From Sulfurimonas sp. (GTDB lineage Bacteria > Campylobacterota > Campylobacteria > Campylobacterales > Sulfurimonadaceae), in assembly GCA_026988245.1 (NCBI GenBank), contig JALSLR010000044.1, forward strand, positions 1-55,942: a stretch of 55,942 nt of DNA, written 5' to 3'. The number at the start of each line of letters is the position of its first letter. The first letter of the stretch is position 1. Shown here piece by piece: positions 36,208-39,166 of the stretch. The translations under genes were made by a program, and so were the position numbers. The notes below the pieces were generated by a model, which saw only the letters and a list, made by a program, of their open reading frames with translations, did not search any database and was not told the origin of the DNA.

Positions 36208-36972
36208 ATGTCTTGGCTTGATGTTTTTTCACAGTCTTATGTAGTCGGTTTTATACTTTTATTTTTTCGTTTTGCTGCAATGTTTTTAGCAACGCCTATC
36301 TTCTCTCATCAAAGTATACCAATGACTATAAAGGCATCAATGGCATTTTTTTTTACAATAGTATTTTACTCATCCATGCCAGAGTTAGCAATAACTATCT
36401 CTTTTCCAACTATTGTCCTAGCTATATTAAGTGAGATGTTATTTGGTTTAGCTATAGGGATAATACTTCAAATATCTTTTAATGTTATCACTTTTGCAGG
36501 GGGAATCATCTCTTTTATGATGGGCTTCTCTATGGCAAGCGCTATTGATCCTCAGTCTGGTGTAAGTATGCCGATAGTATCACAATTTTTATCTTTGATG
36601 GGTTTAATGGTATTACTATCCATTGATATGCATCATTGGGTACTTTTATTTGTGAGTGATTCTCTTTCACATATACCTCTTGGTGGCTTTATTATGGAAG
36701 AAGAATTATTTAGTTATATTATCTATGCAACAGGTAAAATGTTTTTAGTTGGCTTTATGATAGCTTTTCCTATCATAGCCTTAACATGGCTATCTGATGT
36801 GATTTTTGGAATGTTGATGAAAACTATGCCTCAGTTTAATCTACTTGTAATTGGTTTTCCAATCAAAATTATGGTCTCTTTTGTAGTTCTAATTGCAACC
36901 TTCAGTGCAAGTATGTTAATCCTTAAAAATGAAATGTTAGAAGCTTTTAACTATTTAAGGATGTTTTTTTAA
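36208..36972 (+). CDS. fliR: Flagellar biosynthesis protein FliR
   Basis: FliR is part of the export gate of the flagellar type III secretion system. The 254-residue protein has six hydrophobic segments and family landmarks FFRFAAMFLATPIFSHQ near the N-terminus and FPIKIMVSFVVLIATF near the C-terminus. It starts three bases after the ABC gene and precedes the acidic receiver-like protein, the order found in Campylobacter. Confidence 0.92.
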   Translation: MSWLDVFSQSYVVGFILLFFRFAAMFLATPIFSHQSIPMTIKASMAFFFTIVFYSSMPELAITISFPTIVLAILSEMLFGLAIGIILQISFNVITFAGGIISFMMGFSMASAIDPQSGVSMPIVSQFLSLMGLMVLLSIDMHHWVLLFVSDSLSHIPLGGFIMEEELFSYIIYATGKMFLVGFMIAFPIIALTWLSDVIFGMLMKTMPQFNLLVIGFPIKIMVSFVVLIATFSASMLILKNEMLEAFNYLRMFF

Positions 36973-37007: not shown

Positions 37008-38543
37008 GTGAAAATTCTTCTAATAAATGATAACCCAGTTGTAAACAAATTAGTAACCTTGAGTGCTCAAAAAACTTCAGACTCGTTAGAAAGTGTTGAA
37101 AATATTGATGATATTAGTCTTGATAGATATGACTTATTAGTGATAGATGACACTCTTTATTCAGCAGAAGTAATGGATGATTTAAAATCAAAGGTACAAT
37201 TTGATAAATCCTTATATATTTGTTCAAAAGATGCTGATGAAATAGAAGAATTTACGAAGATACTAAAAAAACCTTTTTTGCCTACAGATTTAGTAGAGAT
37301 GTTTTCTTCATTAGGTCGAGAAGCAGAAGTGAATGTAGAACAATTAGCCGATAGCTTAGCAAGTGAAGAAGTTGAAAGCTTTGAAGAAGCGAACCAAACC
37401 GATGAATTAGAAGATTTCAACTTAGAGTTAGACTCTGAGCTCGAAGATCTAGGAATAGAAGAAGAGGAGAAGCCTGAAGAACTTTCTGAGGATGACTTAG
37501 AAGATTTTTCTTTAGATAATGAAGCATTAGCCGAGGATGACATAGCTTTAGAGGATATAGAGTTAGAAGACATGGACTTAAATGATTTAAGTGAAGTGCC
37601 AGAGGTAGAATCAGGATTTGATGAAGAACTTGATTTAGATTCTTTAGACTTAGGTGAAGAATTAGCTCCTGTTGAAGAATTAGCTCCTGTTTTAGACGAA
37701 GAAGAAGTTCAAGAAGTTCAAGACTTACTAGAAGAAGTAAATGAGGAAGCTGAAAGCTTAGATTCAGAATTTGACGATTTAGAAGATATAAGTTTAGATA
37801 CTGCTGTTGAAGCTTTAGATATAAGCGAAGAACCTGATACGGAACTTGAAAATTTAGAGGAATTAACTGAAGAAATTTCAAGTGAACCTGATACTCTAGA
37901 AGATAAAAACTTGGATGCAGCTGTTGAAGCATTAGATATCGATTCTGAAGATGATTTGAACTTAGATGTAGAGTTAGAAGAGATAGGGGAACTAGAAGAC
38001 TTAAGTTTAGAATCGGAGTCTGAAATGGGTCTTGAAGCTGAAAACTTAGAGGTAGAAGAACCTGATGACCTAGAACTAGATGATGAATTATTTTTAGCAG
38101 ATTCCCATGGAGAGGATACAGAAGCTAATTCAGAAAATTCTGCCGATGATGAAGTAAATGATGCAGTTGAAAGCTTCCAAGAAGAACCCCAAGAGCTAAA
38201 CATAGAAGCACAAAACTTAGAAGAACTGATAGAATCAGCTGAAGAAGAGCTCACTCAAGAAGACTTAGAGAGTGAAGTCAATTTAGATGAGTTTGGTGAG
38301 CTAACTACAAATGAATTAAAACTAGCGCTTGGCGAAGAAGTGAATGAAGTGGTAGATTCAGAAGTAAATGAAGAACAGCCTGAAGATAGCTTAGAAGAAA
38401 CAATACAAGATACACAGATAACGGCCGATAATAATGGAATAGAAGCACTCAAAAAACTTTTAAAAGCACTTTCAAATGAAGACGTAGCAGCTTCAATGAA
38501 GGGTATGAAAGTAAATATTAATTTTGAATTTGGTGATAAGTAG
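37008..38543 (+). CDS. Highly acidic protein with N-terminal receiver-like domain
   Basis: A 511-residue protein starting at GTG after AAAGGA, with a possible TACAAT box at 36984. Residues 1-100 look like a response-regulator receiver: Asp8 in KILLINDNP, Asp47-Asp48 in YDLLVIDDTL and Lys88-Pro-Phe in ILKKPFLPTDL. Residues ~115-470 are an extremely Glu/Asp/Leu-rich, low-complexity repeat region. The last ~45 residues (EALKKLLKALSNEDVAASMKG, then KVNINFEFGD) look ordered. The same place between fliR and gmk holds a 'highly acidic protein' in Campylobacter. A link to the flagellum is inferred from position only. Confidence 0.8.
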   Translation: MKILLINDNPVVNKLVTLSAQKTSDSLESVENIDDISLDRYDLLVIDDTLYSAEVMDDLKSKVQFDKSLYICSKDADEIEEFTKILKKPFLPTDLVEMFSSLGREAEVNVEQLADSLASEEVESFEEANQTDELEDFNLELDSELEDLGIEEEEKPEELSEDDLEDFSLDNEALAEDDIALEDIELEDMDLNDLSEVPEVESGFDEELDLDSLDLGEELAPVEELAPVLDEEEVQEVQDLLEEVNEEAESLDSEFDDLEDISLDTAVEALDISEEPDTELENLEELTEEISSEPDTLEDKNLDAAVEALDIDSEDDLNLDVELEEIGELEDLSLESESEMGLEAENLEVEEPDDLELDDELFLADSHGEDTEANSENSADDEVNDAVESFQEEPQELNIEAQNLEELIESAEEELTQEDLESEVNLDEFGELTTNELKLALGEEVNEVVDSEVNEEQPEDSLEETIQDTQITADNNGIEALKKLLKALSNEDVAASMKGMKVNINFEFGDK

Positions 38544-39166
38544 TGAATTGTGATTCAGGAGCAATTCTAGTACTCTCCGGACCAAGTGGTGCAGGTAAAA
38601 GCACCTTGTTGAATGAAATCATCCCTGATATTGGAGAATGTTACTTCTCTATTTCAACCACTACTAGACCTATTCGTGAAGGGGAATCACATGGTATTCA
38701 CTATTACTTTGTTAGTGAAGAAGAGTTTAAGCAGGATATAGAAGAGGAGATGTTCTTAGAGTATGCCTATGTGCATGGTAATTACTATGGTACATCGATG
38801 AAACCTGTAAAAAGAGCCTTAAAAGCTGGAAAGCTAGTTGTTTTTGACATAGATGTTCAAGGAAATACTGTTGTGACAAATAGACTTGGAGATATTACGA
38901 CGAGTGTTTTTATTTCTCCTCCAACACTTTCAGAATTAAAAAAGAGACTTGAACATCGACAAACAGATGCTCAAGAAGTGATAGATAGACGTATTAAGAT
39001 GGCAAAAAAAGAGATACAAAGAATTTCGGAATACGATTACCTTATTATCAATGATGATTTAGAAGAAGCTGCTAATGTGCTAAGAACTATCGCAAAAGCT
39101 GCAAGATTGAAAATTCCTGGTAATGAGATTAATGAATTTACAAGAAAATGGGAAGATATAGACTAA
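38543..39166 (+). CDS. gmk: Guanylate kinase
   Basis: This 207-residue enzyme phosphorylates GMP to GDP. The P-loop is LSGPSGAGKST, followed by the GMP-binding STTTRPIREGE and HGIHYYF and the lid-region RLEHRQTD. The GTG start overlaps the stop of the acidic protein gene by one base, so they are coupled. tatA follows. Confidence 0.95.
   Translation: MNCDSGAILVLSGPSGAGKSTLLNEIIPDIGECYFSISTTTRPIREGESHGIHYYFVSEEEFKQDIEEEMFLEYAYVHGNYYGTSMKPVKRALKAGKLVVFDIDVQGNTVVTNRLGDITTSVFISPPTLSELKKRLEHRQTDAQEVIDRRIKMAKKEIQRISEYDYLIINDDLEEAANVLRTIAKAARLKIPGNEINEFTRKWEDID

Follow-up and report, generated by a model that had tools for sequence, protein, structure and literature searches.

The stretch of DNA analysed here (the window, 55,942 nucleotides from Sulfurimonas sp.) carries a gene that, judged from its sequence, is a divergent chePep of a Sulfurimonas-type bacterium. 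We put at about 80% the probability that the encoded protein is a polar scaffold that places the phosphatase CheZ at the flagellar pole. The ChePep family is known; its persistence in genomes without FliM, CheW and CheZ seems to be new. We also consider it rather probable that chemotaxis is not the dedicated task of ChePep, and that its core, a receiver plus a C-terminal tail, has an old, phylum-wide, selected function that needs no CheZ, CheW or flagella; several separate groups would have kept this core after losing chemotaxis, and the tethering of CheZ through an acidic linker would be secondary. A chemotaxis regulator that seemingly outlives chemotaxis suggests a second job for ChePep, and flagellum-less genomes in which chePep is kept, apparently under selection, would allow the core function to be tested, in harmless bacteria of vents and sediments, without confusion from flagellar phenotypes.

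Gene and locus

The chePep-type open reading frame (37008–38543, + strand) has 511 codons, with a GTG start, AAAGGA a short way upstream of it, and a TAG stop, and the N-terminal part of its 511-aa product is matched by both NCBIfam ChePep model NF041272 and a receiver profile. Open reading frames and gene-order comparison identify the upstream neighbour as fliR (36208–36972, + strand) and the downstream neighbour as gmk (38543–39166, + strand); the latter overlaps chePep by one base, the final G of the TAG stop being the first base of the gmk GTG start. Because its motif residues are near-invariant over 83 sequences, the comparison indicates that the frame is real and not a chance one. Antisense open reading frames of 138, 171 and 178 aa lie opposite the gene and were dismissed. 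The host genome contains a single match to this chePep, and the receiver is 54–73% identical to the best 80 of 256 related stretches, 67 of these 80 being from Sulfurimonas.

Gene order was compared over 82 loci, one per genome, that hold both genes. Gmk lies at most 100 nt downstream of chePep in 79 of them, and the two genes overlap in 67, with starts taken from the longest open reading frames. FliR is found within 1 kb upstream in all 42 gmk-holding loci that also hold fliR, and adjacency to gmk is broken in three genomes (G210, G159 and G224). The initial annotation described the place between fliR and gmk as conserved in Campylobacter; the conservation stands, while the limitation to that genus does not.

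The N-terminal receiver domain

Residues 1–105 (37008–37322, + strand) are predicted to form an atypical receiver domain. The AlphaFold model of residues 1–115 (mean pLDDT 89, pTM 0.82) has strands at residues 2–6, 26–30, 40–47, 64–72 and 84–87 and helices at 10–22, 53–62 and 92–113; residues 73–83 form a loop, and the alpha-4 helix expected there is absent. The best 50 of 115 Foldseek matches (E ≤ 0.001; best E 7.7e-6) are receivers or receiver-bearing proteins, some of them not named so in their titles, and VIA-align 2 gave Z values of up to 14.1 over 114 residues with an rmsd of 2.1 (1ny5_A). These matches to PDB receivers support the receiver-like fold that had been proposed from the sequence. 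Among the same 50 matches is 2i6f, the receiver of FrzS; dozens of other receivers match at least as closely. FrzS is a polar motility protein of Myxococcus xanthus with an unusual receiver at its N-terminus and a different downstream region, and we offer the likeness as an analogy only.

Conservation was assessed over a set of 83 sequences, the window protein included, gathered by similarity to that protein or to the ChePep model; 100 sequences were found, from which those without a 3′ end and those sharing their first 100 residues with another were removed. Helicobacter-type rows are heavily represented, and Met is written for start codons. Two of the receiver hallmarks first pointed out hold across this set: the phospho-acceptor-like residue Asp47 (37146–37148, + strand; Asp in 82 of 83, Glu in one) and Lys88-Pro89, which opens a KPFLPT signature at residues 88–93 (37269–37286, + strand; K 83, P 83, F 82, L 83, P 83 and T 79 of 83). 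Asp8, proposed as a third hallmark, is not one for the family; position 8 is mostly occupied by Gln (23), Asp (19), Lys (13), Asn (11), Ser (5) or Glu (4), and it is the neighbouring residues Asn7 (79/83) and Asn9 (78/83) that are conserved. When the set is thinned to 56 sequences, K88, P89, L91 and P92 are invariant and N7, N9, D47, F90 and T93 are present in at least 90%; more distant homologues depart from some of these motif residues.

CheY binds metal through an acidic pair that closes strand 1. With positions equated to those of CheY, ChePep resembles CheY-type receivers in its predicted overall fold, the acceptor-like Asp ending strand 3 and the Lys-Pro at strand 5, and differs from them in having Asn at the first place of the acidic pair, in lacking alpha-4 in the model and in not being free-standing. 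A conserved acidic pair is absent over the 83 sequences. We regard the receiver as atypical because it retains the acceptor-like Asp and the Lys without conserving the metal-binding acidic pair.

The receiver profile has matches in all 298 genomes of the phylum that were searched, the low scorers being partly other receivers; the low-scoring matches that were examined, a subset, were judged by their place beside gmk. Nine genomes of family f7 have a gmk-adjacent homologue of 254–334 aa (loci L105, L109–L111, L113, L116–L118 and L122), and Lys88 is replaced by Arg in seven of them.

The acidic linker and C-terminal tail

Residues 106–465 (37323–38402, + strand) make up the large Glu/Asp/Leu region recognized at the outset. 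Asp+Glu account for 42.5% of these 360 residues and Leu for 15.8%; there are three Lys/Arg, the net charge is −150, and most of the stretch is predicted to be disordered, with pLDDT mostly <50 in the full-length model. The model and the alignment also point to two conserved helical islands. Island 1, at about residues 229–245 (37692–37742, + strand), coincides with a helix predicted at 231–258, with pLDDT blocks of 88 and 81 at 231–250; island 2 is at about residues 401–445 (38208–38342, + strand). Both occur mainly in family f1, the family of the window, with island 2 also weakly present at L068 and L072, and they are possible docking motifs for a partner. A role as docks for CheZ was not supported, given that G252, a genome without CheZ, keeps both and that they are mainly a feature of f1. 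PP2A scaffold matches among PDB sequences (E 0.016–0.19) were set aside as compositional, with no single stretch passing alone; response-regulator chains in the same search were no stronger (E 0.045–0.39).

The protein ends in a conserved tail, residues 476–511 (38433–38540, + strand), delimited by the alignment, the model and a tail profile. A helix is predicted at 477–496, followed by a conserved end of the G-M-x-I-x-I-N-I type, for which the full-length model predicts no strand. The tail profile matched 23 of 32 genomes searched (E ≤ 0.01), always at chePep itself; G210 showed an additional, marginal place (E 0.004). It found no match in the other nine genomes, which include the flagellate G008, G044, G122 and G049, or at the nine f7 loci beside gmk. 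A match of NCBIfam FlaG to the last 97 residues was discarded as weak (17.6 bits against a cut-off of 117), and Pfam gave nothing above cut-off for the whole protein or either end.

Assignment to the ChePep family

NF041272 matches residues 1–99 of the N-terminal part with an E value of 9.3e-6 and 24.7 bits, against a cut-off of 650, and the full-length protein has no match to it at E up to 1. The cut-off is passed in only eight of 298 phylum genomes, all of genus g18; the model is thus narrower than the family, and failing its cut-off says little. Those genes over the cut-off that were retrieved (e.g., L002–L005) immediately precede gmk, just like the window gene, in genomes with CheZ, and share the receiver and tail motifs with the window protein. 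ChePep of H. pylori and of C. jejuni (CJJ81176_1193) likewise combines an N-terminal receiver-like domain, an acidic middle and a conserved C-terminus. We assign the window gene to ChePep because a related receiver, a Glu/Asp-rich middle, a conserved C-terminal segment and the gene order with gmk occur together. It is nonetheless divergent: its receiver is only 26–32% identical to Helicobacter-type receivers, the protein is more acidic than the Helicobacter-type and poorer in Lys/Arg than most of them, and the two linker islands set it apart from known ChePep.

Proposed role as a polar scaffold

ChePep has been described as a Campylobacterota-specific chemotaxis protein (PMC11237671; PMC9665402) and, elsewhere, as poorly understood (PMC7750401). 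In H. pylori it takes part in recruiting CheZ to the pole (PMC11237671; PMC7750401), and there CheZ also acts downstream of ChePep in biofilm formation (PMC11237671). The C. jejuni chePep mutant hyper-reverses, at 120/min against 95/min in the wild type (PMC9665402), and hyper-reversal of chePep mutants is reported for H. pylori as well; insertions in chePep lowered C. jejuni colonization of mice (PMC5438104). The function, which the initial annotation gave as unknown, is therefore not wholly so.

The host genome has FliM (E 4.8e-77), nine CheW matches and CheZ (E 2.6e-89), so the published polar-scaffold mechanism is the best guess for the window protein. The atypical receiver and the tail would hold ChePep within an assembly at the flagellar pole, with the long, flexible acidic stretch between them spacing or tethering partners, chiefly CheZ, the CheY-P phosphatase. 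CheY-P would thereby be destroyed close to the motor, and loss of ChePep would raise CheY-P at the motor and lead to too frequent reversal. Which part of ChePep binds what is proposed here on the same footing, as is a receiver that would act without regulated phosphorylation; a search for localisation or binding data for this species found none. The suggestion of a scaffold at the flagellar pole thus agrees with the published role of ChePep, while a purely flagellar role looks too narrow, as genomes without FliM and CheW keep the gene.

The CheZ N-termini of the phylum (L211–L230) read MTQEELDALM or close to it, with M1, Q3, E4 and E5 invariant in the 19 aligned. Presumably this N-terminus resembles the CheY-binding N-terminus of FliM/FliY.

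Persistence of chePep without apparent flagella and chemotaxis

We consider it somewhat more probable than the opposite that the receiver-plus-tail core has an older job independent of chemotaxis, such as organising the cell pole or another cytoplasmic assembly. This is compatible with the polar-scaffold mechanism: CheZ recruitment would have been added later, perhaps together with growth of the long acidic linker. The evidence comes from 45 chosen genomes that were tested for FliM and CheW. The same 31 lack both (19 of f4, nine of g20, two of g6, and G086). Pfam's CheZ model proved too weak for the phylum, matching 106 of 298 genomes with two over the cut-off, and an in-phylum profile was built instead, which matched 250 and left 48 without; all 31 are without a CheZ match. 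Seven of the genomes lacking FliM and CheW (G058, G221, G225, G264, G191, G288 and G211) are single-contig and 99–100% complete, which makes an assembly gap an unlikely reason for the absence in these.

Of these 31 genomes, 29 keep chePep, 28 of them beside gmk (f4 17/19, g20 9/9, g6 2/2); G204 has chePep, and gmk was not found in it. CheZ recruitment is hardly the sole selected function, because the gene is kept in genomes without CheZ. Against an older job stands the failure to find chePep in G284 and G086. Conservation in the 29 genes is also incomplete: Lys88 is present in 28, Asp47 in 26 (a count that includes L233 of G063, where the local alignment is doubtful and the residue may be Asn), KPFLP in 26 and Asn7 in no more than 16. 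The tail profile matched 23 (at about E 0.01 or better).

In the eight genomes of family f8, FliM is divergent (E 1e-38 to 2e-41), CheZ has no match, and CheW is present in both genomes tested (G013 and G057). The family keeps chePep beside gmk in 8/8, which favours the older job, and its ChePep receivers score among the highest in the phylum. FliM E values elsewhere were 1e-48 to 1e-54 in f7, 4e-26 in G222, 4e-58 in G252 and about 1e-76 or better in the remaining positives.

Two further groupings without CheZ were observed. G252, of the genus of the window, has a more divergent FliM (3.6e-58), lacks a CheZ match and carries no fliR at its chePep locus (L051, C1:1628084–1628956); its flagellar set has possibly been replaced, and its ChePep is short (294 aa), with a strong receiver and tail. 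Five genomes of genus g17 in f2 (G016, G018, G050, G119 and G124) have a normal FliM (about 1e-76 to 1e-78), no CheZ match, and a chePep receiver match with E values of 1e-18 to 1e-21.

That chePep persists without chemotaxis seems to be unreported in the literature searched; the founding ChePep papers (Howitt 2011; Lertsethtakarn 2015), other subscription papers and preprints lay outside the search. Nothing was found joining ChePep with "guanylate kinase" or with the phrase "Campylobacter gracilis". The search for ChePep with Nitratiruptor returned PMC9321776 only, which was also the top result for Sulfurovum with gracilis and which mentions ChePep once, in its reference list. That paper (2022) describes Sulfurovum and Nitratifractor as having no flagella and having lost all chemosensory genes, and says the same of a small clade within Campylobacter (C. 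gracilis, C. hominis and C. ureolyticus). By gene content f4, g20 and f8 appear to fit groups of PMC9321776, and from the two together we infer that f4 is Sulfurovum-like, g20 C. gracilis-like, f8 Nitratiruptor-like and f7 Arcobacter-like.

Selection on the receiver and length of ChePep

Receiver dN/dS was estimated pairwise by the Nei-Gojobori method, values being undefined where synonymous sites are saturated; pairs whose receivers were less than 42% identical were left out, other than those of g9, g35 and g20. The six closest pairs without FliM, CheW and CheZ gave 0.10, 0.17 and 0.20 (g40), 0.16 (g45), 0.14 (g6) and 0.27 (g49). Values in flagellate families were 0.12–0.15 in f1 (three of 10 pairs) and 0.10–0.12 in f10 (three of three), so that, by this measure, the constraint on the six closest flagellum-less pairs overlaps that in flagellate species. 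CheZ-less f8 gave 0.05–0.18 (eight of 28 pairs defined). These low values favour an older job for the core. The wider picture is less uniform: g49 gave 0.16–0.30 (four defined of six pairs shown), g20 0.18–0.67 (25 defined of 36), a single very diverged g35 pair 0.95, and three g9 pairs were undefined, many pairs being saturated. In f8, 16 of 28 pairs are more similar in the receiver than in gmk. The reverse holds for all f4, g6 and g20 pairs shown, which counts against the older job; the receiver there evolves faster than a likely essential enzyme.

A different reason for persistence would be translational coupling, with chePep kept in flagellum-less genomes only because the overlapping gmk needs an upstream open reading frame. 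The frequent overlap of the two genes and the likely essential nature of gmk speak for it. Coupling would not preserve amino acids, however, and Lys88, Asp47 and KPFLP are nearly always kept in the 29 genes; G086, moreover, has gmk without an adjoining chePep. The low dN/dS of the six closest pairs makes coupling to gmk insufficient alone, and we judge this explanation unlikely.

Length fits an older job of the core in part. Median ChePep length is 232 aa in genomes without FliM (n = 18), 307 aa with FliM and without CheZ (n = 7) and 489 aa in the others (n = 77), groups that are not independent; the 18 cover 11/19 f4, 4/9 g20, the two g6 genomes and G232, where CheZ matches weakly, and in the 77, CheZ was found and FliM mostly not tested. 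The smallest forms, of 143–149 aa, hold little beyond receiver and tail. This suggests that receiver and tail are the core of ChePep and the acidic linker its adjustable part; that the linker is linked to chemotaxis is our conjecture. Length tracks CheZ imperfectly, however, with open frames of 250 to 690 aa in g20 and short proteins (254–334 aa) in CheZ-positive f7, and the linker islands do not follow CheZ, as G252 illustrates.

Phosphorylation and charge

The scaffold could also be switched by phosphorylation, CheA or another kinase phosphorylating Asp47 so that partners are released or exposed. The receiver fold, the near-invariance of Asp47 and Lys88 and the presence of Asp8 in the window protein itself are consistent with such a switch. 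We nevertheless think it improbable, as residue 7 is Asn in nearly all sequences, residue 8 is Asp or Glu in only 23 of 83, the model has no helix in the alpha-4 place, and Lys88 gives way to Arg in most f7 loci. Phosphorylation control, raised in the initial annotation, is neither supported nor disproved, the metal-binding acidic pair being unconserved in the family. A polyanionic chaperone or buffer in which charge alone matters, another early proposal, has the net charge as its sole evidence and is very unlikely, since the strongest conservation lies outside the acidic part and forms nearly without a linker persist.

In G146 (L252 and L261; C1:493669–493982), an in-frame TAG interrupts the receiver part of chePep, which is either a decayed copy or a sequencing error; this genome has FliM, CheW and CheZ.
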